This document shows, in pieces, positions 4,062-26,764 of a stretch of 38,199 nucleotides of DNA (positions are counted from its first letter, which is position 1; each line of letters starts with the position of its first letter). Source of the DNA: Lentisphaerota bacterium (lineage in GTDB: Bacteria > Verrucomicrobiota > Lentisphaeria > Victivallales > Victivallaceae); contig SUVY01000022.1 of the NCBI GenBank assembly GCA_015061775.1, positions 1 to 38,199 on the forward strand, read 5' to 3'. The notes under the pieces are model-generated. The model did no database searches. It was not told where the DNA came from and was given only the letters and a program-made list of their open reading frames with translations. Made by a program: the position numbers and the translations under genes.

Positions 4062-6839
4062 CTACCTTATTATTCTGGTGAGCTTGACGGGTCCGAATAA
4101 GCCGAAGGGAAGTCCTGAGAGGCGGTCACGGTTGGCTGGAGCGTTGAGGACAGACACCTCGATAAGATGCCTGCCCGGAACGAGCTCCCCGATATCACAA
4201 CGGTACGGAGGATGCAGCAAAGTGCAGACTTTTTTACCATCAATAAAGACGATTGCGGCATCTTCTACTCTTCCTAAATCAAGCCGCATGAAACCGCCTC
4301 GCCACTCGAAAGACTGCTTGTAGGAGACCTTTCCGGAAAAAGTACCCCAGCCGGCAGACCGCAAGTCTCCGGCAGGAACATCAAACGAGAGCGGGCTTGC
4401 CTCAAGATAAGGCATTTCGTTGGGAGTATGTCTGAATTTGACGGAGAAATTTCCGTATAGCCGCGGGGGTTCAAAACAGCCGGACATTCCGTCCGGAAAC
4501 TCAAAGGTGAGCAGGTTGACCGTTGCCGTACTTCCCTGGCGGATGAAATCTGTTATTCCGCATACGATATTGCGGCAGTCGTAAACGGCTGCCGGGGCAA
4601 AGCCGGGAACTGGAACTCCGTTGACCAGGCAGATGTAAGGAGCAGAAAAACTGCTCTCCTCAAGGACGAGCTTCACAAGAGAAAAGTCGCCCTGCGCGAA
4701 AAACTTGAACTCACATTTTTGAATACAGCATCCGGAAGGAAGATCGATGCTTTTGTTGTCGTCGAGCAGACGGATGTACTTTTCTGTGCCGTCAGAGAGC
4801 TCAAGCCTGGCAGTCTGGAGCGCGACGTGATTTTCAGGTGCGGAAAAACTCCAGATATGCGGAAGTTCCATGCTGAATACCTTTTCGCACTTTTCCTCTT
4901 CGGCTGCGGCTGCTGCTTTTTCGAGCAGTTCTCCTGATCGCGGAGCAAGCAGGACTTCTATCTGGTTGAAGGTGCCGCGGAATTCGCGGTCGGCGCGGTT
5001 GAAGAGATATACGGTTCCGTCTTCACATTTGCGGTAAAAGATGTTTTCAGCTCCGTCACCGGATATATCTTGGCGCGGAAGTTCGTTGAGGGGAGAAGAA
5101 TATGCGTTGTCGGCACAGCTGCTCCACAGCTCCCGGGTTCCGGTAATAACAGGAACCGTTTCGCCGCAGCAGACCAGTTTTCCGGAGTAGTTTTCAAGTT
5201 CGTCGGCAGCGGCGCGGGAGATGGAGCTTATTTCCGGAACGACGAAGGCATCATATTTTTTTGAGATATGATCGGCTCCGAGTTCGACCAGAGTGAGTTC
5301 GTCGATAAAGTCAAAGTCACAGCCTCCGGTGAGCAGATCATCGGCGAGCAGGTGCAGCTTCTCTTCGATCAGACGGTTTTCCGCCTGATCTTTGCAGCAG
5401 AATTGGCTCACCGGGTAAAGCATGGCGACCCGGCAGGCTGATGGAGATGCCGAAAGACGGCGGCAGACCTCTCTTGTTCCATTGAGCAAGTCAGCCATAA
5501 GCTCCCATTGCGTGTGCTGGTAGAATAGGCTCGGAGGAGCTTCGTCTTTGCGTAATCCGTCGATGGAGTAGTCTATTCCGTGGATATTGAACCAGGTGAT
5601 CCCCATGACCATCTGGAAATCAAGATTGAACTTCAAATCGCGCATTGCCGCTTCGCTGCCGACGACTCCGAGGGCATCGCTGCCGGCTTGTCTTTTTCCG
5701 AAAAGTTTGGCGGCTGAGCTTGCGACTTTCAAGCCGACTGCGTAACTTGCTGTGTCGCGCAGAGCTATGTTGTTTCCGAGCGGATCGGTGCAGGGAATAT
5801 CCAGATGGCGGCAGCACCGCAGTTCATCGGGCCAGAGGACTCCGTTGCAGAAAGAGAGGTTTTCGCAGCGGCTGAGATGGCCGGTGCTGAGAATTCCGTG
5901 TTCGCGGCACCACTTGCGCAATTTGTTGAGATAATTTCCGCAGATGAGCTCTTTCTGGGTCAGCCGGTAGCGGTAACGGATGATGGAGCTCTCAGGAGAT
6001 ATATCGCAAAAGAGGTGAGGAAGATCAGGAATAAGAGACTTTTCCCACATATCGCAATAGCGGTCGTCAAATTTATCTGTCCACGGGTAGGTTCCGTCGA
6101 TGCTTGGTTCATCGAGAAAGGTCGAGATAATGGTGTTTCCGAAGTAACTTGAATACCGTTTGTAATACTCTTCGAGGGTGACTTCGATAAATTTGTCAAC
6201 AGCTTTTTCATTCATTATATCGACGCTGTGGAGATGTCCGAATCCCCGCTTGCGTTTGACGGCAAGTACGCGGCAGTCGCTCCGCGGAGTAAAGCATACC
6301 GCCCAACGGCGGTTTCCGTGTCTGGCGCGTATATGGGGAGTACCCATCTTTAATACCGGAGTGTATGCGCTGTATTGGATGAAAGGCTTTTGGAGCTCTG
6401 GCGCAACAGTTCCGCACGAGGAGGTGATGTCTTCAATACAGTCCTCAGCGTAAATGGCATAACAGGCAAGCAGATCATCATCTCCGTCGATGACCTGATA
6501 GAACAATGTGTTGCCCCGGGCGGAAAAAATCTGCGGTTCGAGATATTGCGAAACAAATCCGGGGTCTGCCCATACAACTCTGTTTCCTGCGGTCGGAGAG
6601 GGGTAACCATCCTCATCCCAGATGGCAAATTTTATTCCGTGTCTGCGGCACTCTTCGAGGATGACATCCATCGCGTGCCACCAGGCGTCGGAAAAATACG
6701 GAGTGAGCAATCCGAAGCGTGAGTGAGCGTGCAGACACTCAAATCCGGCATCTGAAATCATTGCCACCTGTTCCCGCAGTTCATCATCTTTGAGCAGATG
6801 GTTCAAAAAATATTGACAGGTGATGTGGATGTTGTCCAT
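4062..6839 (-). CDS. GH106-like glycoside hydrolase (alpha-L-rhamnosidase superfamily)
   Basis: 925 residues, no signal peptide, so it probably acts on imported oligosaccharides in the cytoplasm. The N-terminal TIM-barrel half carries IWDEDGYPSPTAG (about residues 73-85), matching the DE-G-PSG-AG motif of GH106-like enzymes, and a segment from VDIMNEKAVDKFI (about 207) to STFLDEPSIDG (about 239-249), where the family has its DEPS motif. The C-terminal third looks like beta-sandwich/galactose-binding-like modules ending in a region with RCDIGELVPGRHLIEV. Rhamnosidase activity is plausible but not certain, as this superfamily is broad and expanded in Lentisphaerota. GGAGA precedes the ATG. Confidence 0.75.
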   Translation of the reverse strand: MDNIHITCQYFLNHLLKDDELREQVAMISDAGFECLHAHSRFGLLTPYFSDAWWHAMDVILEECRRHGIKFAIWDEDGYPSPTAGNRVVWADPGFVSQYLEPQIFSARGNTLFYQVIDGDDDLLACYAIYAEDCIEDITSSCGTVAPELQKPFIQYSAYTPVLKMGTPHIRARHGNRRWAVCFTPRSDCRVLAVKRKRGFGHLHSVDIMNEKAVDKFIEVTLEEYYKRYSSYFGNTIISTFLDEPSIDGTYPWTDKFDDRYCDMWEKSLIPDLPHLFCDISPESSIIRYRYRLTQKELICGNYLNKLRKWCREHGILSTGHLSRCENLSFCNGVLWPDELRCCRHLDIPCTDPLGNNIALRDTASYAVGLKVASSAAKLFGKRQAGSDALGVVGSEAAMRDLKFNLDFQMVMGITWFNIHGIDYSIDGLRKDEAPPSLFYQHTQWELMADLLNGTREVCRRLSASPSACRVAMLYPVSQFCCKDQAENRLIEEKLHLLADDLLTGGCDFDFIDELTLVELGADHISKKYDAFVVPEISSISRAAADELENYSGKLVCCGETVPVITGTRELWSSCADNAYSSPLNELPRQDISGDGAENIFYRKCEDGTVYLFNRADREFRGTFNQIEVLLAPRSGELLEKAAAAAEEEKCEKVFSMELPHIWSFSAPENHVALQTARLELSDGTEKYIRLLDDNKSIDLPSGCCIQKCEFKFFAQGDFSLVKLVLEESSFSAPYICLVNGVPVPGFAPAAVYDCRNIVCGITDFIRQGSTATVNLLTFEFPDGMSGCFEPPRLYGNFSVKFRHTPNEMPYLEASPLSFDVPAGDLRSAGWGTFSGKVSYKQSFEWRGGFMRLDLGRVEDAAIVFIDGKKVCTLLHPPYRCDIGELVPGRHLIEVSVLNAPANRDRLSGLPFGLFGPVKLTRIIR

Positions 6840-9374: not shown

Positions 9375-9409
9375 TAAAAAAACCTCCGCTCTGAGGCAGA
9401 GCGGAGGTT
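9375..9409 (-). terminator. Intrinsic terminator of the surface glycoprotein operon
   Basis: A perfect 12-bp stem, AACCTCCGCTCT with AGAGCGGAGGTT, loop GAGGC. On the - strand it is followed by a run of T. It lies 18 bp past the repeat-protein stop and may also slow transcription of the convergent acyltransferase. Confidence 0.85.
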
Positions 9410-9427
9410 CGGGATTGCATTGCAATA

Positions 9428-12400
9428 TCAGGCGATGATATCGAAACTGCTCTTCATGTCGGTTTCGATACGCGCTCCGAGATCGACCCAGTTTCCGGCA
9501 TAGCCGCAGCCCCAGTAACCGAGTCCGCCCCAGCCGGATTTGTGTTCGCGGAGCAGCAGATCGGCACAGCCGTCGCCGTTGTAGTCACCGGCAGCTTCGA
9601 TTTCAAAGCCCTCTCCGAGAGTACCTCTCCAGCGTTTGGTGCTGCTGTTGCCGTCATCCCAGACCCAGACGTTGTTGGTGTTGCGGTCGAGTACCATGAT
9701 GTCGTCGATGCCGTCACCTTCAAAGTCTCCGACAGCGGCGATTTCCCATCCGCTTTCGAGTTTGCCGATGCTCTGGGTCTTCCAGTTCCATGTGTTGAAG
9801 GTGGTGTCCTGGTTTGTCCAGAGATAGACCTGATTATTGTAGTTGTTGACCATGACAAGTTTATCCATGCCTTCGTCGAAGGAGCCTGCGCCTTTGATGG
9901 TCCAGGTGGCGAACTCTCCTGCGTTGACGTGGAAAATATCCTTGTAGGTAGTTCCGCCGAGGACAACTCCGATGCTTCCGTTGGTGTCGTAGATGAGGAT
10001 ATCATCATACTCATCACCGTCGAGATTTGCGAGGCATTGGGTGTTGAAGGAGCCATCTACTTTGCAGAGGTTGACGTAACCGTAGCTGCCGGTGCGGATA
10101 TTTGTCCATGCGGCGAAACGGTTGCCGACTCCGTTGTAGAGGAGTATTCCGTCGTAGTCAACTTCTGAGCCTTTGAAGTGACCGACTCCGGCGACGCGCC
10201 AGAGCGCGGCATCGGCTCCTGACCACTCCCAGACGCCTCTCCATTTGGGATATTTGTTTCCGTCAGCAGCCATGTAGCCGACTTTGCCCTGTGCGCTGTC
10301 CCAGGCGAGGATCTGGGATACGCCGTTGGTGAGCAGATTGACGTCGGTGTCGAGACCATTGGTTCCGGAGACAGTCAGCGTGAGATCGCTTCCATCCATT
10401 CCGAGGGTGTACTCTGCACCCGTGACTGAGACGGTGGAGCCGACTGAAAGGTACTGGCTGAGTGTCTCGTCTCCGACGGTGATCTGCAATGAGCCGTAGA
10501 AGCTGTCGGCGTTTTCAGCGATGACATAGGTTCCGTTTTTCTGTGACGCACTCACCTTGAGAGAGATGTTTCCGCCGGAAATCATGGAGTAGTTGCTGAT
10601 GAGATAGTCATCGTTGAGACCGGATTTTGAGAGGTCGAAAACGACTTTCGCACTCTCATTGCTGCTGATCTGGGCGTTGAGGATGTTTTCTCCCTGCAGA
10701 TAGATGGTTCCGTCAACGTTGCGGATGGTATCCGTTGAAGTTGAGAGGGTGATATCCTGAGCGTAGATGACAGAGTCTTCGTTGAGGATAGCTCCTCCGT
10801 TGTTTCCGGTGTTGCCGGAAAAACTGACGTTTTTGAGCTTGAGCTCAGAGTTTGCTTTGTTGAGAACAGCACCTCCGCCGTTGGCGTAATAGACGCTGTT
10901 ATTGTTGAATTTGCCGTTTTCGATCGTAAGTTTGCTGTACTCGTTTACGATCGCTCCGCCCCATGTTGCGGTGTTTCCGGTGAAGGTCGCTGAGGACATG
11001 ATGGTCGTGCCGGAGCTGTTGTAATAGGCTCCTCCGAGCTCGGTTGCCTCATTGTTGTTGAAGGTGACCTTTTCGAGGGTGACGCTGCCCCATTCGTTGA
11101 ATATCGCGCCTCCCCATTGGGAGACTTCATCGGATATGGTGGTGTTACCGATATACATGCTGCCGTTGCGGCAGTTGATGGCAGCTCCCCAGTCGTTGGC
11201 AGTGTTGCCTTTGAAAGTGCAGCTGTCGAGACGCATGGTGCCGCTGTCGTTCATGACGGCGCCTCCCCAGCGGGCTGTGTTGCCGGTGAAGGTTGCGTTT
11301 TTGACCGAGATGGTGCCGTTGTTGAGGATGGCTCCACCGTTCATGGTGGCGGTGTTGCCGGTGAACGCTGCGCTGGTGACAGAGGCATTGCCTGACTCGT
11401 TGTTGTATATGGCACCTCCCCAGAAGGCGCTGTTCTGTTTGAACTCATAGATATCGAGGGTCATCACACCTGCGTTGAAGATCGCACCGCCGGTGCCGTT
11501 GGTACCGAGGGTTTTGTTGCCGGAAAAGACGGTCTCCAGGTTTCCGTAGATGGTGATTTTGTCGAGGTTGCAGATGGCTCCGCCGTTGCCCTTGTCATTG
11601 ACGGTGTTGCCGACATAGTTTATGACGCCGAGGGTCATGGAGCCTGAGTTGTTGTAAACGGCTCCACCGACATTGGCGTTGTTGACTGAGAAGTTTCCGA
11701 AGTGCTGGGTGTAAGAGCCGCCGTTGTTGTTGACTCCTCCGCCCGTGTTGGCGGAGTTTCCGGCAAAGGAGGCGTTTTCGACGGTCATCTCTGCTGCTGA
11801 TGCGACGGCAATGGCTGCTCCCCAGTAGCCGTAGTTGTCGTTGAAAGTCGCGTTATCTATACGCATGATACCGCCGGAAGTGTTGTAGACCGCTCCGCCG
11901 AAACCGAAGCCGCTGTTTCCGGAAAATACCGCGTTTGTGAGGTTCATCGTGCCATTGTCGTTGAGGATCGCTCCGCCTCCGGCATTGGCGATGTTTTGAT
12001 TGAAAGTCGCGTCGGTGAGTTTGACGTTTCCTGAGTTGTTGAGGACGGCACCTCCGGTCTGGGCGGAGTTTCCGGCAAAGGTGACGCGGTCGAAGGTTGC
12101 GGAGGTGAATGCTTCAAACGCAACCGCTCCGCCCCAGCTCGCTGAGTTGTTTGTCACTGTGGCGTCGGCGACGGTGTAGTAACCGTTCGAGGCGTTGAGG
12201 ATTGCTCCGCCCATGCCTTCGACGACTTTGTTGCCGTCGATGGAGGCGTTGGCGATGGTCATTGAGCCTCCGGCGTTGAGGAAAGCGCCGCCTCCGCGGC
12301 TCGCGGTGTTTCCGGAAAAGTTCGCTTTATCGAAAGAGGCGGTTCCGAAGTAGTTGTAAACGGCTCCTCCGATCACTCCTGAGTTGCCTGAAAAGAGTGC

Positions 12401-12916
12401 GTCGTAAGCAGAGAATGCGCAATTTTTGTAGGCTTTTCCCGGAGTGTTATAGAGCACGCCGCCATTGGTTCCTTTGTTGTCGAGGAAATTCGCATGAGAG
12501 ACGGAGATATTTCCGTTTGAGCCATTCATAAAGACTCCGCCGTTGGTTCCGGAGTTGGCAGAGAAATAAACGTTGTCAAAGTTCATTACTCCGCCTTCGT
12601 TGTAAACGGCACCTCCGCGCTCGGCGTTGTTGCTGACGAAGTTTCCTCCGTCGATGGAGAACGTGGCGTAATAGTTGTCTACTGCGCCTCCGTAGTTCGC
12701 GCTGTTGTTGTAGAAGTCGGCGTTTTTGTACTCGAGGACGGTGTTGGTAACAGGATTGTAAAACTCGTTGTAGTTATCCACCGCTCCGCCGTAACCGGAA
12801 TAGGGCCACGGAAGTCCGGAGTAGATGACATCGGTGAAGCTTTGGGAGCTTCCCCAGTTGAAAATACGGTCTTGCGCTGTTTTTACAACGGCGCCTTCTT
12901 GAATAACTTCAGTCAT
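9428..12916 (-). CDS. Pmp-like repeat surface protein with FG-GAP C-terminus
   Basis: 1162 residues. Residues about 40-770 hold roughly 25 repeats with GGA(V/I)YN-like and FxGN/FxxN tetrads, the signature of chlamydial polymorphic membrane protein repeats, predicting a right-handed beta-helix very rich in Gly, Asn, Ser and Thr. The C-terminal part (about 910-1140) has FG-GAP/VCBS-like beta-propeller repeats with calcium-type loops (DLDGDEYDD, DFEGDGIDD, DYNGDGCAD). It ends in SSFDIIA. There is no Sec signal peptide (it starts MTEVIQEGAVVKTAQ) and no C-terminal autotransporter barrel, so export must use another route; the hydrophobic-ended C-terminus would suit type I secretion, which is inference. 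Last gene of the operon, 20 nt after the glycosyltransferase; it is the likely substrate of the O-heptosyltransferase. Confidence 0.85.
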   Translation of the reverse strand: MTEVIQEGAVVKTAQDRIFNWGSSQSFTDVIYSGLPWPYSGYGGAVDNYNEFYNPVTNTVLEYKNADFYNNSANYGGAVDNYYATFSIDGGNFVSNNAERGGAVYNEGGVMNFDNVYFSANSGTNGGVFMNGSNGNISVSHANFLDNKGTNGGVLYNTPGKAYKNCAFSAYDALFSGNSGVIGGAVYNYFGTASFDKANFSGNTASRGGGAFLNAGGSMTIANASIDGNKVVEGMGGAILNASNGYYTVADATVTNNSASWGGAVAFEAFTSATFDRVTFAGNSAQTGGAVLNNSGNVKLTDATFNQNIANAGGGAILNDNGTMNLTNAVFSGNSGFGFGGAVYNTSGGIMRIDNATFNDNYGYWGAAIAVASAAEMTVENASFAGNSANTGGGVNNNGGSYTQHFGNFSVNNANVGGAVYNNSGSMTLGVINYVGNTVNDKGNGGAICNLDKITIYGNLETVFSGNKTLGTNGTGGAIFNAGVMTLDIYEFKQNSAFWGGAIYNNESGNASVTSAAFTGNTATMNGGAILNNGTISVKNATFTGNTARWGGAVMNDSGTMRLDSCTFKGNTANDWGAAINCRNGSMYIGNTTISDEVSQWGGAIFNEWGSVTLEKVTFNNNEATELGGAYYNSSGTTIMSSATFTGNTATWGGAIVNEYSKLTIENGKFNNNSVYYANGGGAVLNKANSELKLKNVSFSGNTGNNGGAILNEDSVIYAQDITLSTSTDTIRNVDGTIYLQGENILNAQISSNESAKVVFDLSKSGLNDDYLISNYSMISGGNISLKVSASQKNGTYVIAENADSFYGSLQITVGDETLSQYLSVGSTVSVTGAEYTLGMDGSDLTLTVSGTNGLDTDVNLLTNGVSQILAWDSAQGKVGYMAADGNKYPKWRGVWEWSGADAALWRVAGVGHFKGSEVDYDGILLYNGVGNRFAAWTNIRTGSYGYVNLCKVDGSFNTQCLANLDGDEYDDILIYDTNGSIGVVLGGTTYKDIFHVNAGEFATWTIKGAGSFDEGMDKLVMVNNYNNQVYLWTNQDTTFNTWNWKTQSIGKLESGWEIAAVGDFEGDGIDDIMVLDRNTNNVWVWDDGNSSTKRWRGTLGEGFEIEAAGDYNGDGCADLLLREHKSGWGGLGYWGCGYAGNWVDLGARIETDMKSSFDIIA

Positions 12917-12936
12917 GGGACAGGATTCCTTGTGTG

Positions 12937-15465
12937 TTACTTGATCAATGCTCTTTTAACTCTTCTCATCCAGTTTGGGATATGACGCTGTTTCCAAGTG
13001 ATCCAACGGTTGCGTTTATCTCTGCCTTCGAGGGTGTCGGTGAACTCCCAGTTGAGGAGCTTGAGGTATTTTGCGCCCTCAGAGTTATCTTTCCACCACT
13101 GCATGATCTCGGCAAATTTTTCCGGGTCATTTGCGTAAGCGAGATAGAAGAACGAATGGTGGTAGGCGATGTTGAGCAGATAGGAGGCTGTATTATCTTC
13201 TTTGCCTGCAAATTTGCTGTAATGCACCATAAGGTTTTTGAGGATATTGTAGTTCATATCCAGCTTTTTGACGATCACCGCAGGATCGACCGACTGTCCG
13301 GGGCGTCCCAGACGGTAGTAGTAGAGTTCGATCATCTGATAGGCGATGCTCTTCACGAACGGGAATGGGTATGAGATATACTCCTGATCGACGTAGAAGG
13401 ATTTTTCCGTGATGGTGATTTTGTTGTCCTTCAGCAGAGAAGTGCGGTAGGTGATGGCGTGCATGTGGATATAGGAATACATGCTCTCATCTTTGTGGAG
13501 TGCCTCGCGCAGCTCTTCCGGAGTATAGAACTTCTCCTCAAGGCGGTCACGGTAGGAGATGCTCTTTATTGAACCGTCGGTGAAGAACTGGCAGTAGTCG
13601 CAGACGACCATATCCACGTCGTTCTTTTTCAGGAATTCAAGGTGTTTGATGAATGCCATGGGCTCAAGGTAGTCATCGGCATCGACCAGCTTGAAATATT
13701 TTCCGGTGGCGTTTTTGACTCCGGAATTGATGCAGGAGCCGTGTCCGCCGTTCTCTTTATCGACGACTTTGACGATGCCGGGATATTTTTTCTCGTACTC
13801 TTGTGCGACTTTGAGAGTGTCATCCTTTGAACCGTCGTTGACGATGATGACTTCGATATCTTTGAGCAGAGCCGGATGGTCGAGCTTCATGAAGAGCTCA
13901 GGCAGGTAGTCCTGCATATTGTAGGAGGGAACTGCGATAGAGAGCACAGGATCTTTTCTCTCAGCCGGAACTCCGTACTCTTCGATAAAGTTCATGATGC
14001 GTCCTGAAATCGCCTGCCAGGTGTTGGCATCGGACTCCTCTTTGAGGGCAGCCATATACTTCGCGTCCTCTCTCATGGTGAGAGCCTTATCGACCTGCTT
14101 CACGAAGTCGGCAGGGTCTTCGGCGATCAGGCAGGATTTGTAGAGTTTGCACTCCGGCATAGCTGATGTGACCACCGGAATACCCTGAGCCATGTACTCG
14201 AACATCTTGACCGGAGAGACCGAGATGGTGACTTCGTATATCCTGAACGGAATGATTCCGACATCGAAGAAGCGCGAGAAGTATTTGAGGTTTTCATATC
14301 TCTGAGCCGGAATGATGAACACGTTGGGATAGTTGGCAAGTCCGCTCTTGGCAAACGCTCCTTTGCCCCACTCGTAGTCATATCCGATCATGACGATGCT
14401 GTAATCCGGACGCTCTTTTGCGAGGGTCACGAGCATATCGTAGTTGAGCCAGGGGGCAAAACTTCCGTAGAAACCGATGATCTTTCCTTTGCGGGCGAGA
14501 ACAGGCTCCATCTCCGGAGGTATCTTGCTGTTTTCGGGCAGTATCCAGTCTTCGGGACGCACTCCGTTTTTGGAGAGGATGACCCGTCCTGAGCGGTATT
14601 TCGCCGCTTTGCGGTAGAGGTTTTCTGCGGTGGAACAGACCAGAACGTCCGGGTTCTGGAGCAGGTAGTCGTGACGCTCGAAGTGCTGCGGAGTCACTCC
14701 GGGGAAGATGTCAGCGCAGAGCTCATCGAAGTAGTCGTAGTAGATGGTGACTCCGGAGGACTGCAGGAATTTTATATCGTCGATGGTGGTTCCGGGCTCG
14801 GTGGGCATCAGGCTGTAATAGACCGGTTTTTTGCTGTTGAGGATAAGGGTGTTGAGGATATCCTGACGCTTTTCTCGGTCGTTGAAGTTGACCAGATAGA
14901 GATTTTCCTGTTCCCTTCTCACGTAATCGGTGATGTCGCGGGGAAAATCCGGATTCATGGCGCAGAAGACCAGATATCCCTGTGCCATCAGGTTGTCTGC
15001 GAGGTGGTGGTGACGCTGTTTGAAGGTCTCATACCAGCCCATGACGAGTGAGCCGATGATCCAGACTCCGCGGTACTCACCCTTGCGGAGGCGTTTGACG
15101 AGCGCATTTTTGATCTCGGAGCGGTCTCCGCGCGTTCCCTCGATCTGGAGGTGCATACGGTAGATGGTCTGCTCAATATCCGCCAGCGGAGAGATGGGCA
15201 GATCGCGCTTGAAAAGAGCAAGCTTCACCATGTCTTTCAGCGTGCGGAAGGGGTGGTGACGCAGATTGCGGAACAACGCTCCCATTTTCATCGGACGGCT
15301 CTTGCCGGTGTCGATCACCTGACAGGAGAGATCGTAGAGACTCTTTGAGAGGTCGGCAAAAGCCTGAGTCTCACGCTCGCTTTTCTGTTTGAGCAGTTCG
15401 TAATTCTGTTTAAGAGTTTCAAACTCCTCAACGCTTATATGTTTTTTTCCCATTTCGTTATCCAT
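12937..15465 (-). CDS. Two-domain glycosyltransferase, GT4-like plus GT2
   Basis: 842 residues, cytoplasmic. A short coiled coil (about 8-50) is followed by a GT-B domain (about 130-490) with a GT4-type C-terminal motif (VSPVKMFEYMAQGIPVVTS). A GT-A/GT2 domain follows (about 505-740), with LSIAVPSYNMQDYL, EVIIVNDGSKDDT and the metal-binding VDADDYLEP. A helical tail ends it. It could add two successive sugars to one acceptor. Its place between the heptosyltransferase and the repeat protein suggests it extends protein-linked glycan, but donors and acceptor are unknown. A second ATG at codon 5 is an alternative start. Confidence 0.85.
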   Translation of the reverse strand: MDNEMGKKHISVEEFETLKQNYELLKQKSERETQAFADLSKSLYDLSCQVIDTGKSRPMKMGALFRNLRHHPFRTLKDMVKLALFKRDLPISPLADIEQTIYRMHLQIEGTRGDRSEIKNALVKRLRKGEYRGVWIIGSLVMGWYETFKQRHHHLADNLMAQGYLVFCAMNPDFPRDITDYVRREQENLYLVNFNDREKRQDILNTLILNSKKPVYYSLMPTEPGTTIDDIKFLQSSGVTIYYDYFDELCADIFPGVTPQHFERHDYLLQNPDVLVCSTAENLYRKAAKYRSGRVILSKNGVRPEDWILPENSKIPPEMEPVLARKGKIIGFYGSFAPWLNYDMLVTLAKERPDYSIVMIGYDYEWGKGAFAKSGLANYPNVFIIPAQRYENLKYFSRFFDVGIIPFRIYEVTISVSPVKMFEYMAQGIPVVTSAMPECKLYKSCLIAEDPADFVKQVDKALTMREDAKYMAALKEESDANTWQAISGRIMNFIEEYGVPAERKDPVLSIAVPSYNMQDYLPELFMKLDHPALLKDIEVIIVNDGSKDDTLKVAQEYEKKYPGIVKVVDKENGGHGSCINSGVKNATGKYFKLVDADDYLEPMAFIKHLEFLKKNDVDMVVCDYCQFFTDGSIKSISYRDRLEEKFYTPEELREALHKDESMYSYIHMHAITYRTSLLKDNKITITEKSFYVDQEYISYPFPFVKSIAYQMIELYYYRLGRPGQSVDPAVIVKKLDMNYNILKNLMVHYSKFAGKEDNTASYLLNIAYHHSFFYLAYANDPEKFAEIMQWWKDNSEGAKYLKLLNWEFTDTLEGRDKRNRWITWKQRHIPNWMRRVKRALIK

Positions 15466-15516
15466 TTTGATTTTCCCTTGATTTAAAGTGCAGCGCTGAT
15501 TTTCCCCCGCAGCGCA

Positions 15517-16872
15517 TTATTTTTCTTTCTGCTCTTCGGCGGGCTGGAAGGTCGGAATCTTTCTGATGGTGGTGATGACCTGTTCCGGAGAGATGAGTTT
15601 GGTGCACTCAAAGTGGCGGTCGGTACCCTTGTGACGCGGACACCAGAGGAAATCGAAGTGGTCGAAGTCAAGTCTCATATCGTTCCAGCAGCTGTGGCAG
15701 GTGTGGTAGTTGATGACTCTGTACGGAGTCTCGAATTCGTTGGTGGGATGGGTGAATCCTGAAATCATCAGTACCGGGACTTTGCAGCCCCAGGCAAGCC
15801 AGCTCAGACCGCTCGAGAGACCGATAAAGAAGTCGGCGTCTTTGATGAGGTCGATGCGCTCCTGGAGCGGAAGGTCTCCTGTGAAGTCCTCTGCTCCGTA
15901 GGGGATGAAGTTCCAGTTGAGCCCGGTTCCGTGGACTTTTTCCTTATCGATGCAGATGACGCGGTAGCCGTTGTCTTTCAGGAATTTCACCACGGTCATC
16001 CATCCGAAGGGGTTGTTCCAGTATTTTGCCTGACTTGAGCTCTGGGCGGCGATGCAGACGTATTTCTCTTTGATTTTGCGCGGAGCTGAGAGGTCGAAGC
16101 GCGGAGGAATATCGGCAGGATCGACTCCGAGGATGTATCCGGCAGTACGGTGCAGTCCGATGTAGCGGAAGTCGATCGGCTGGTGATCGACGTCTCCCTT
16201 GAAGAAGAGGCCCATGTAGTAGCAGGCGTAAGGCTTGTAGTTTTTGGTCTCAGCTGTGGTGATGAAGGTGATATCAGGATACTGCTTTTTGACCACTTCT
16301 GCGATCCACGGAGTCATGACGCAGATGACTTTGCAGCCGTGTTTCTGCTGGAAACGTTCGACATAGCTGAACCAGCCGATACTGTCGCCGAGAGTTCCGA
16401 CGGGGAGCTGGATCATCACCTCTTTGTCGCGGCAGTCGAAATCGTGGGTGAAGATCGGCTCTTTGCCTCCCTTCTCATGGATGATGAGGCGGAAGCGGAT
16501 GTAGAATTTTTTGACGCTGGTGACATAAGCTCCCGGAACGGTGTCGTTGCTGTAAAGAATGATTCCGGTGTCGATGTCGGTGAAGGTCACGTGGTACTCT
16601 TTTCCGTTGTGCGGGAAGAGGATACGGATACCTTCGTTGAAGTCGAATTTGATTCCCTCGACTGCGTCCTGGGTCGGGATCTGCGGAACTTCTCCGTAGA
16701 TGGATTGCTGCTTGGGCTGCGCCGGAGCGGGCGCGGGGGCAGGAGCGTTCTGCTGGGCAGGAGCCTGTGCCTGGGCGGGAGCCTGTACTTGAGCAGGCGC
16801 CGGAGCAGAGATGTTTATTGAAATATCGTTGGTGTTGAGGGAAGGGTTGACACTGATGATGTTGTCACTCAT
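15517..16872 (-). CDS. Autotransporter strand-loop-strand O-heptosyltransferase (TibC/Aah type)
   Basis: 451 residues. Enzymes of this family transfer heptose from ADP-heptose to serines of strand-loop-strand repeat adhesins in the cytoplasm before export. Family hallmarks are dense: PVGTLGDSIGWF, YWNNPFGW, GAEDFTGD, GLSSGLSWLAWG, MISGFTHPTNEF. Four cysteines (C392, C395, C411, C423; HTCHSCW, WCPRH, FEC) match the iron-finger region of TibC. A 60-residue N-terminal extension rich in Pro, Ala and Gln is atypical and may be a flexible docking tail. First gene of the operon; AGGAAAC precedes the ATG. The repeat protein encoded two genes later is the obvious substrate. Confidence 0.92.
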   Translation of the reverse strand: MSDNIISVNPSLNTNDISINISAPAPAQVQAPAQAQAPAQQNAPAPAPAPAQPKQQSIYGEVPQIPTQDAVEGIKFDFNEGIRILFPHNGKEYHVTFTDIDTGIILYSNDTVPGAYVTSVKKFYIRFRLIIHEKGGKEPIFTHDFDCRDKEVMIQLPVGTLGDSIGWFSYVERFQQKHGCKVICVMTPWIAEVVKKQYPDITFITTAETKNYKPYACYYMGLFFKGDVDHQPIDFRYIGLHRTAGYILGVDPADIPPRFDLSAPRKIKEKYVCIAAQSSSQAKYWNNPFGWMTVVKFLKDNGYRVICIDKEKVHGTGLNWNFIPYGAEDFTGDLPLQERIDLIKDADFFIGLSSGLSWLAWGCKVPVLMISGFTHPTNEFETPYRVINYHTCHSCWNDMRLDFDHFDFLWCPRHKGTDRHFECTKLISPEQVITTIRKIPTFQPAEEQKEK

Positions 16873-16977
16873 TTTTTTGTTTCCTGTTTGCGGACAGTTT
16901 CTGCCGTCCGTATGTTTTATGTTAAATTTTTTATTGAAACCCGATCGTCAGGGCACAAAAAATCCCTAACCTTATAT

Positions 16978-17006
16978 AATATAACGCGCATACGCGCAAT
17001 TGTCAA
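16978..17006 (-). promoter_or_regulatory. Promoter of the surface glycoprotein operon
   Basis: Read on the - strand, TTGACA (17001-17006), 17 bp, TATATT (16978-16983), a near-consensus promoter. The spacer holds the direct repeat ACGCGCAT-ACGCGCAA, which is also a GCGC-atac-GCGC dyad. The leader to the first ATG is about 100 nt and contains a small hairpin CGGAC/GTCCG just before the ribosome-binding site. Confidence 0.75.
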
Positions 17007-23930: not shown

Positions 23931-25697
23931 ATGGACAAAAACTGCTGGGATCTCGGAGCGATGTATGCGGCTCCGGAACTTTGGGAAGAGGATTTCAAAA
24001 AGCTTCCGCTTCTTGCCGATAAATATTATGCTTACCGCGGACGCCTTGCGGAAAGTGCCGCGGCTCTCAAAGAGGCGATCGAAGCCGGAGATGAACTCTC
24101 CCGTCTCGGAGAAAAAGTTTACTGCTACGCCCATTTGAAGAGCGATGAGGATACTTCCAACAACGCCAACCGTGAGCGGGTGGACAGAGTGGGTGCGCTC
24201 TTTGCCGAATTGTCTGACAAGGAGGCGTGGTTTGACCCTGAGCTCATGGCGATATCCGATGAGCGCATGAAAGAGCTGCTCGACGCTCCTGAGTTGTCGT
24301 TCTACCGCAGAAGCATCGAGGAGCTGCTGCGCGACAAACCCCATATCCTGAGTGAGAAGGAGGAGACCCTGCTCGGAAATTACTCCGCAGTTCTCGGTTC
24401 ATCCGGCAAGACCTTCGGTATCCTCAATGACGCCGACCTCGACTTCGGAACAGTCAAAAACTCCGACGGCAAACGCGAAAAACTCACCCACGGCAGTTAC
24501 CGCCGCTTTATGGAGTGTCCCGACCGCAGCGTGCGCAAGGCGGCGTTTGACAAACTCTATAAGGTTTACGGAGCTTTCCGCAATACATTTGCTTCCACGC
24601 TGAACGCAACGGTGCAGCTCCACGCGACGGGAGTGCGGGTGCGCAACTACAAGAGCTCTCTCGCCGCGGCGTTGTCCGGAGACAATGTTCCTGAGAGTGT
24701 TTACCGCAATCTGATTTCCAGCGTTCACGCCAACTTCCCGGCATTCTACGACTACATGAAGCTGCGCCGCGAAGTTATGGGGCTGGAGAAACTTGATATG
24801 TACGATATGTATAATCCGCTGGTATCCGAGTGCCGCTGTGATTATACTTTTGAGCAGGCAAAAGAGCTGGTCAGAGCTTCGCTTGCTCCGATGGGCAAGG
24901 AGTATATCCGGGATATCGAGCTTGCGTTTTCCCAGAGATGGGTCGATGTTCCCGAGCGCAAAGGCAAGCGTTCCGGAGCGTATTCCGGAGGCTGTTACGA
25001 CAGCTATCCCTATATGCTTCTCAACTACAACGGAACGCTCAATGATGTCTTCACTCTCACTCACGAGCTCGGACACTCGATGCACAGCTTTTACAGCAAC
25101 AAAAACTGTCATTATCACTATGCCGACTACCGCATATTTGTTGCAGAAGTCGCCAGTACCACCAATGAGATACTGCTTTTTGAGTACCTTTACGAAAACG
25201 CCGCAAGTCCCGAGCTGCGCAAATATTTGCTCTGCCATCTGGCTGATGAGATACGCGGAACGATCTTCCGTCAGACCATGTTTGCCGAGTTCGAACTGTG
25301 GATGCATGAAGCTGTTGAAAGCGGAATGCCGCTCTCAGCGGATACTCTGAGCAAAAAGTATTATGAACTCAACGCCCTCTATTACGGAAACGAGGTGGAG
25401 CCTTCCAAAGCCATCGAACTTGAGTGGGCGAGAATTCCGCACTTCTACTACAACTTCTATGTTTACAAATACGCTACCGGAATGTCTGCCGCTCTGCAGC
25501 TGGCAAAAAATCTCCGCTCCGGAGACGAAGCCAAACGCAAGGCGTATATCGGATTCCTCTCTGCCGGATGTACCAAAGATGTGCTGGATATCATGCGCGA
25601 TGCCGGAGTCGATCTTGAGACTCCTGAGCCGGTCGATGCAGCTCTCAGCTACTTTGCTGATCTGGTGCAGAGAATGAGAAAAGAGTTCGGCAAGTGA
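23931..25697 (+). CDS. pepF: Oligoendopeptidase F (M3 metallopeptidase)
   Basis: 588 residues, cytoplasmic zinc peptidase of the M3B family that degrades short peptides. The active-site helix is TLTHELGHSMHSFYS (HExxH), with the downstream third ligand Glu in EVASTTNEILLFE. N-terminal helical domain begins WDLGAMYAAPELW. Length is normal for PepF. Starts 15 nt after the NAD(P)HX repair gene and ends in a GTGA overlap with hydE, so it belongs to the same operon. Confidence 0.93.
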   Translation: MDKNCWDLGAMYAAPELWEEDFKKLPLLADKYYAYRGRLAESAAALKEAIEAGDELSRLGEKVYCYAHLKSDEDTSNNANRERVDRVGALFAELSDKEAWFDPELMAISDERMKELLDAPELSFYRRSIEELLRDKPHILSEKEETLLGNYSAVLGSSGKTFGILNDADLDFGTVKNSDGKREKLTHGSYRRFMECPDRSVRKAAFDKLYKVYGAFRNTFASTLNATVQLHATGVRVRNYKSSLAAALSGDNVPESVYRNLISSVHANFPAFYDYMKLRREVMGLEKLDMYDMYNPLVSECRCDYTFEQAKELVRASLAPMGKEYIRDIELAFSQRWVDVPERKGKRSGAYSGGCYDSYPYMLLNYNGTLNDVFTLTHELGHSMHSFYSNKNCHYHYADYRIFVAEVASTTNEILLFEYLYENAASPELRKYLLCHLADEIRGTIFRQTMFAEFELWMHEAVESGMPLSADTLSKKYYELNALYYGNEVEPSKAIELEWARIPHFYYNFYVYKYATGMSAALQLAKNLRSGDEAKRKAYIGFLSAGCTKDVLDIMRDAGVDLETPEPVDAALSYFADLVQRMRKEFGK

Positions 25698-26764
25698 AAA
25701 ACATCTGCGAAAAAAGTCTCGCCGGAAACGATTTGAACTCAGATGAGATACTTGCATTGCTCAAGTGCTCAGATGAGCAGTTTCCAACTGTTCAGAAGTA
25801 CGCCTGTATGGTGCGCGATAAATATGTCGGCAATGCGGTGCATCTGCGCGGATTGATCGAGTTTTCCAATTTCTGCACCTGTGACTGCCGTTACTGCGGT
25901 ATCCGCAAAAGCAATGTTCATGTCAACCGTTACACCATGGACAAAGAGGCGATATTGGAAGCCGCGCACTTTTCCCGCAACCGCGGATACGGTTCGGTAG
26001 TGCTGCAAAGCGGAGAGCGCAGAGATGAAAAATTTGTGAGCTTCGTAGAGGATGTGGTAAGAGAGATTTCCGCGATAGGCGATGGAGAGCTCGGAATAAC
26101 CCTCTCATGCGGAGTGCAGTCTCCGGAAGTTTACCGCCGCTGGCGCGACGCCGGAGCAAACCGTTATCTTCTGCGTATCGAGACGACAGACCGCAAACTC
26201 TTTGCAGCTCTCCACCCTGACGGAGACTTCGACAGCCGCAAAGAGGCGTTATCTGCGCTCAAAGAGTGCGGATATATCACCGGTACAGGAGTTATGACCG
26301 GTCTTCCGGGGCAGACTGTTGAAATGCTTGCCCGCGATGTGGAGTATTTCCGCGAGCTCGGAGCCGATATGATCGGTCTCGGCCCCTATGTTACCCACTC
26401 TGAGGCGGTGCTCGAGGAGTTCGGTACAGACACTCCTGAGCGTATGCGTGAACGTCTTGCAATCACCTACCGTATGCTTTGCGCCTGCCGACTGGTACTC
26501 AGGGACGTCAATATCGCTTCCGCGACCGCACTCTCTGCGCTCGATCCTGAAAACGGAAGAGTGGACGGTCTGCTCTCAGGAGCCAATGTCGTGATGCCCA
26601 ACACCGGAAGCCTCAAACAGAGAAAAGAATACGACCTCTATAAAAATAAACCCGAAACCTCCGAAAGCCTCGAAGATATCCGCCAAAGCACAACCCGCGC
26701 CGGCTGTACCCTCGAACTCTTCACCCAGGGCAACCCTCCGCGCCAAGTGCGTCATAACGCATAA
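25694..26764 (+). CDS. hydE: [FeFe]-hydrogenase maturation radical SAM enzyme HydE
   Basis: 356 residues. HydE acts with HydG and HydF to build the H-cluster. The radical SAM cluster motif is FCTCDCRYCGIR (CxxxCxxC) preceded by HLRGLIEFSN, characteristic of HydE; TGVMTGLPGQT and MIGLGPY follow as in the family, and the protein ends with ELFTQGNPP. The start is GTG at 25694 overlapping the pepF stop. No hydF, hydG or hydrogenase subunit is in the window. BioB and ThiH-like relatives are less likely given the IEFSN/YCGIR context. Confidence 0.9.
   Translation: MKNICEKSLAGNDLNSDEILALLKCSDEQFPTVQKYACMVRDKYVGNAVHLRGLIEFSNFCTCDCRYCGIRKSNVHVNRYTMDKEAILEAAHFSRNRGYGSVVLQSGERRDEKFVSFVEDVVREISAIGDGELGITLSCGVQSPEVYRRWRDAGANRYLLRIETTDRKLFAALHPDGDFDSRKEALSALKECGYITGTGVMTGLPGQTVEMLARDVEYFRELGADMIGLGPYVTHSEAVLEEFGTDTPERMRERLAITYRMLCACRLVLRDVNIASATALSALDPENGRVDGLLSGANVVMPNTGSLKQRKEYDLYKNKPETSESLEDIRQSTTRAGCTLELFTQGNPPRQVRHNA

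Follow-up and report, generated by a model that had tools for sequence, protein, structure and literature searches.

An operon with a TibC-family heptosyltransferase and a putative type I secretion adhesin in a Lentisphaerota bacterium

The window analysed here is a complete 38-kb contig (C71) from the 2.7-Mb, 98% complete genome (G000) of a Lentisphaerota bacterium, and it carries an operon encoding a TibC/Aah-family O-heptosyltransferase (HT), a two-domain glycosyltransferase (GT), and a protein with repeats of the polymorphic membrane protein (Pmp) type. We consider it likely that this locus encodes the modifying enzyme and a substrate of a system in which heptosylated adhesins are exported by type I secretion, and the best reading of the sequence is that TibC-type heptosylation here serves adhesins of a type I secretion system (T1SS) rather than autotransporters. 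This reading is supported by the family and active-site residues of the enzyme, the lack of a signal peptide and barrel in the repeat protein, a C-terminal module common to its paralogs, the presence of a T1SS in the genome, and linked operons in relatives. The nearest named relatives of the genome are Lentisphaeria/Victivallales metagenome-assembled genomes (MAGs), many of animal-gut origin, and the host is a gut bacterium related to Victivallis. Profile searches employed Pfam and NCBIfam; comparisons covered 60 genomes (this one and 59 relatives), 34 genomes of the genus for the autotransporter barrel, and 71 HT loci from public genomes, and genome-wide scans covered named families and queries.

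The operon and its products

All elements of the operon lie on the minus strand in the order described in the original prediction, with intergenic gaps of 51 and 20 bp. More specifically, a strong sigma-70-like promoter (TTGACA-N17-TATATT, 16978..17006; 11 of 12 consensus positions, the best in the region) is followed by the genes for HT (451 aa, 15517..16872), GT (842 aa, 12937..15465), and the Pmp-repeat/FG-GAP protein (1162 aa, 9428..12916), and by an intrinsic terminator with a 14-bp stem and a T run (9380..9410).

HT, which is single-copy in this genome, is a TibC-family member by score, domain and residues. It scored 583 bits (2e-175) with TIGR04414 (hepto_Aah_TibC), for which the curated cut-off is 200, and matched the TibC structure 4rap at 3.7e-141; the PF21129 TibC_1st domain was also matched. 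Taking the functional residues of TibC as named in PMC4358343, the catalytic Asp110 corresponds to D163 and the sugar-binding Lys230, Arg286, and Trp305 to K283, R339, and W358, respectively; the sugar-binding Thr226 is conservatively changed to Ser279, and all four iron-finger Cys residues are kept. The stereoselectivity residue Pro300 of TibC is Ser353 in HT. Aah, which has Ser294 in that position, takes both ADP-heptose epimers, and by this analogy either epimer may serve HT. The sugar transferred would be a heptose, and a homologue of the HldE kinase domain (RfaE domain I) is encoded on contig C16 of the genome (327 bits, slightly below the curated cut-off of 345). An Ala/Pro/Gln-rich N-terminal extension of ~60 aa is present but variable among Lentisphaeria HTs.

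GT combines a GT group 1 and a GT family 2 domain (Pfam) and perhaps extends the sugar added by HT. No close relative of GT was found in the 59 related genomes (E<=1e-60), and a role as conserved partner of HT was rejected because it occurs in this genome only.

In the third gene product, Pmp-type repeats come first and FG-GAP repeats follow (Pfam Chlam_PMP, PF02415, 3.2e-18; FG-GAP_3, 3.8e-9). The Pmp-type passenger (10727..12790) has a period of ~25 residues, and residues 1-760 contain 26 GGA-phi type motifs (shuffled mean 2.3, maximum 8) and 21 FxxN motifs (shuffled mean 6.1, maximum 16); since both counts exceed the shuffled means and maxima, the repeats are not a product of chance. They are rich in Ser, Thr, and Asn, and a single-sequence AlphaFold model of the passenger is all-beta (predicted local distance difference test, pLDDT, 62.7), with a PL6 alginate lyase as the best Foldseek match (E 0.069); the similarity of its fold to known beta-helices was not significant. 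Chlamydial Pmps, which have the same GGA-phi and FxxN repeats, are autotransporters with a signal and a barrel, both of which are absent from the window protein. Thus, as only the repeat type is common to them, the link to chlamydial surface biology drawn in the original prediction is not supported.

The absence of a signal and barrel, claimed in the same prediction, held up. N-terminal hydrophobicity of the repeat protein is 0.44, compared with 2.5-3.1 in Sec-signal controls. Its start codon is well placed, with AAGGA ~10 nt 5' of the ATG, and a revised start yielding a signal peptide was rejected on the basis of this hydrophobicity and of the open frame above the ATG, which spans only 13 codons (KSIDQVTHKESCP). 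No barrel was detected in the protein by Pfam or NCBIfam, and the autotransporter barrel PF03797 was found in none of the 34 genomes of the genus. The protein therefore has neither feature of a classical (type Va) autotransporter, namely a Sec signal and a C-terminal PF03797 barrel, and for lack of both it must use another exporter.

The C-terminal module and the candidate exporter

The last ~310 residues of the repeat protein, a putative export/anchor module (9431..10369), are shared with 13 further proteins that the genome encodes, making a 14-member family (42-88% identity over the module; up to 71% over longer stretches). Paralogs with a common C-terminus, which the original prediction had proposed to look for, are thus present. 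Their passengers differ, being mostly strand-loop-strand (SLS) repeats and otherwise immunoglobulin-like or other; at least 7 of the 13 have SLS or AIDA repeats, with TIGR04415 SLS matches over the cut-off in paralogs on contigs C73, C67, C92, C106, and C37. A signal-like N-terminus was seen in none of the 10 paralogs whose N-terminus is readable, and no paralog carries a barrel. The module is predicted with good confidence to fold as a beta-propeller (pLDDT 82.5; predicted template modelling score 0.84), and propellers are its top matches in the PDB.

The extreme C-terminal tail (GWGGLGYWGCGYAGNWVDLGARIETDMKSSFDIIA, 9431..9535) is conserved and represents a candidate T1SS signal. A fixed tail, ...ARIETDxxSSFDIIA, is common to the window protein and the 13 paralogs, and the pattern GWGGLGYWGxGYAGNWVDLxARIETD...F-x-I-I-A is kept in most of the diverged members, too. 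Outside the genome, strong full-length relatives of the FG-GAP C-terminus were found only in genome G002; other relatives match the FG-GAP repeats partially, some reaching the tail end. In a congener (G021, loci L151-L156), FG-GAP repeats were matched dozens of times in long reading frames whose tails end in DTSFAALA or DTSFALIS, apparently a separate expansion of the same design. Many barrel-less SLS proteins (L157, L159, L161, L171, L172, L174, L175, and L242) resemble one another at the N-terminus in a motif like GGVQYVPQIAVQYVYLDFDGE, which may mark a distinct N-terminal domain in T1SS adhesins.

The genome encodes one TIGR01843 HlyD (over the cut-off) adjoining an HlyB-type ABC transporter on contig C23, together with two OEP/TolC-family proteins. 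Like type I substrates, the window protein has no N-terminal signal and a conserved C-terminal region, and the genome provides an HlyB-type ABC transporter, HlyD, and an OEP/TolC-family channel. Among the 60 genomes, HlyD is present in 40 and HT in 24, and the two co-occur (22/2/18/18, p 6e-4). With no signal, no barrel, a T1SS set in the genome, and a C-terminus common to the paralogs, the earlier proposal that the protein leaves the cell by a route other than autotransport is supported. That the operon is self-contained is not, because the exporter lies elsewhere, on C23, and HT is the sole copy in a genome with 13 further family proteins, SLS or AIDA repeats being present in 7 or more.

Linked exporter genes in other genomes and remaining genes of the window

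A T1SS ABC-HlyD pair lies within ~10 kb of HT at 8 of the 71 loci, versus 0.4 expected if one T1SS per 2.5 Mb is assumed. The gene orders are ABC-HlyD-HT (L246, L247, and Desulfovibrio L255), HT-adhesin-small gene-ABC-HlyD (L239 and L242), HT-adhesin-ABC-HlyD (L272), adhesin-HT-ABC-HlyD-TolC (Desulfovibrio L256), and HT-640-aa protein-ABC-HlyD (Desulfovibrio L257). Exporter genes thus stand beside HT or the adhesin at L239, L242, L272, L256, and L257, and are absent from this window. The adhesins of L239, L242, and L256 combine SLS with RTX calcium-binding repeats, and that of L272 has SLS repeats; the L256 TolC homologue scored 214.7 bits, below the TIGR01844 cut-off (225.15). Misbinning of L255 is unlikely because a Desulfovibrio-type porin is encoded on the same contig. 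That genes for the enzyme, a predicted SLS acceptor, and a T1SS are clustered together in members of two phyla is the strongest evidence for the system.

The three Desulfovibrio loci (L255, L256, and L257) come from goat-rumen MAGs, and their HTs and T1SS ABC transporters are 66-67% and 57-62% identical, respectively, to the Lentisphaeria genes; this similarity suggests horizontal transfer of the whole unit between Lentisphaeria and Desulfovibrio. Between the adhesin and ABC genes, a small signal-peptide protein (LKPGWNLVTL...) is encoded at L242 (4720-5211) and L239 (16371-16919), the L242 copy having no Pfam match.

Elsewhere in the window, HydE, an [FeFe] hydrogenase maturase (25694-26764), is encoded amid ordinary metabolic genes (hisA-like, thrC, pepF, and metX), and a GH106-like alpha-L-rhamnosidase (4062-6839) adjoins a polysaccharide deacetylase.

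Proposed mechanism, alternatives and meaning

In the mechanism that we propose, HT, perhaps together with GT, would modify passengers that are built of repeats, rich in Ser and Thr, and devoid of a Sec signal while these are still in the cytoplasm. A predicted C-terminal beta-propeller, which the Pmp-type protein shares with its 13 paralogs, closes with a conserved hydrophobic tail (phi-phi-Ala); this end would be recognised by the C23 ABC transporter and HlyD, which, with an OEP/TolC-family channel, would export the chain in one step. The propeller would fold outside, perhaps with Ca2+ at DxDGDGxxD-like loops, and display the passenger at the surface. In this scheme, the C23 T1SS would carry the Pmp-type protein, and this protein, not only the SLS paralogs, would be an acceptor of HT. 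The SLS paralogs are the better-supported acceptors, because the window protein is without SLS repeats, and HT may act mainly in trans.

Several observations weigh against a heptosylated type I adhesin system. The T1SS adjoins neither HT nor the window protein, and the nearest paralog on the T1SS contig is ~19 kb off; moreover, a T1SS is present without HT in 18 of the 60 genomes and is therefore not dedicated to heptosylated cargo. Within the window protein, neither RTX nonapeptide repeats, which are typical but not universal of type I substrates, nor SLS repeats (TIGR04415) over the cut-off were found. GT occurs in none of the other 59 genomes, some of the 8 linked loci are phylogenetically related to one another, and nearly all data come from MAGs. 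In favour of the system, a phi-phi-[AS] end, in which two hydrophobic residues precede Ala or Ser, was counted in 24 of 35 barrel-less SLS proteins across species versus 9 of 672 other open reading frames. This motif was chosen post hoc, however, the two sets are not independent, homologous sequences are present in the SLS set and spurious frames in the control, and several SLS proteins (L157, L159, and L251) end otherwise.

The alternative that we take most seriously, while holding it only tentatively, is that HT acts in trans on the SLS paralogs alone, the Pmp-type protein being a T1SS adhesin that is unheptosylated or modified by GT alone. The Pmp-type protein lacks SLS repeats, the acceptor known for TibC/Aah, GT occurs in no other genome of the set, and the presence of SLS repeats tracks that of HT far more tightly than HlyD does (17/1/7/35 over the 60 genomes, Fisher p 1.4e-8). 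This co-occurrence also counts in favour of the main reading. The Pmp-type protein is, however, encoded in the HT operon with gaps of 20 and 51 bp, the genes of bacterial autotransporter heptosyltransferases (BAHTs) usually adjoin the acceptor gene (PMC4358343), and an acceptor loop is possible in its repeats, since these are Ser/Thr/Asn-rich and all-beta in the model.

The remaining explanations fare much worse. Sorting tags typically take the form of one C-terminal domain found on many kinds of passenger, as is the case here, yet Sec-dependent export with a type IX or PEP-CTERM-like sorting domain is very improbable: the window protein and the 10 readable paralogs have no Sec signal, no NCBIfam sorting-tag match was obtained in the C-terminal domain, and HT is linked to T1SS genes instead. 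We give as little credence to retention of the proteins in the cytoplasm or periplasm, or to modification of lipopolysaccharide rather than protein by HT; the GT9-type fold is kin to that of lipopolysaccharide heptosyltransferases, but the equivalog-level TibC score, the TibC-specific N-terminal domain, the iron finger, and the strong co-occurrence of HT with SLS proteins all argue otherwise. Least credible is a degenerate autotransporter that has lost its signal and barrel. Although Pmp repeats, SLS repeats, and TibC enzymes stem from autotransporter biology (PMC4358343), the 1162-codon frame is intact; a truncated autotransporter, of which a barrel-bearing paralog would be the expected sign, was rejected given the same barrel-less C-terminus in all 13 paralogs and the lack of PF03797 in the genus sample.

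A heptosylated type I adhesin system would combine traits of two known ones. TibC/Aah enzymes have been described as autotransporter heptosyltransferases, and in E. coli the TibC-TibA and Aah-AIDA-I pairs each consist of a BAHT and an SLS autotransporter (PMC4358343). The system described here resembles them in enzyme family and active site, in its SLS acceptors (here the paralogs), and in having the enzyme gene beside an adhesin gene; it differs in having, instead of a signal peptide and beta-barrel, a T1SS and adhesins with a predicted propeller or an RTX tail at the C-terminus. With type I RTX proteins and adhesins (PMC3034196) it shares the lack of an N-terminal signal, a conserved C-terminal end, an HlyB-type ABC transporter, HlyD, and an OEP/TolC-family channel, and its operon-linked relatives carry RTX repeats; unlike them, the window protein has an FG-GAP propeller without RTX repeats and is paired with a putative dedicated cytoplasmic O-heptosyltransferase. 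Glycosylated RTX-type surface proteins have been suggested, namely SwmA and oscillin (PMC3034196). Searches of the open-access literature turned up no description of heptosylated T1SS adhesins or of a T1SS served by a TibC-type enzyme. What is new is apparently the pairing of a known enzyme with a known exporter, plus a seemingly unnamed C-terminal module.

Beyond this genome, we lean towards a general O-heptosylation pathway for type I secreted adhesins, in which TibC-type enzymes would add sugars in the cytoplasm to beta-solenoid passengers of the SLS and Pmp types, HlyB/HlyD/TolC would export the glycosylated chains via a C-terminal propeller or RTX tail, and the unit would move between the Lentisphaeria and the Desulfovibrio that live in ruminant guts. 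The analysis also brings to light an adhesin family of 14 members that share a seemingly unnamed, predicted propeller module at the C-terminus, and a glyco-adhesin operon that has probably spread horizontally in the gut communities of ruminants. The definition, the name, and the study of TibC/Aah heptosyltransferases all rest on their modification of autotransporters; their use on type I substrates throughout a lineage would mean that the family is not bound to type V secretion. A T1SS would then also have to pass a chain that is already O-glycosylated, with a bearing on the degree of modification that its channel can tolerate.

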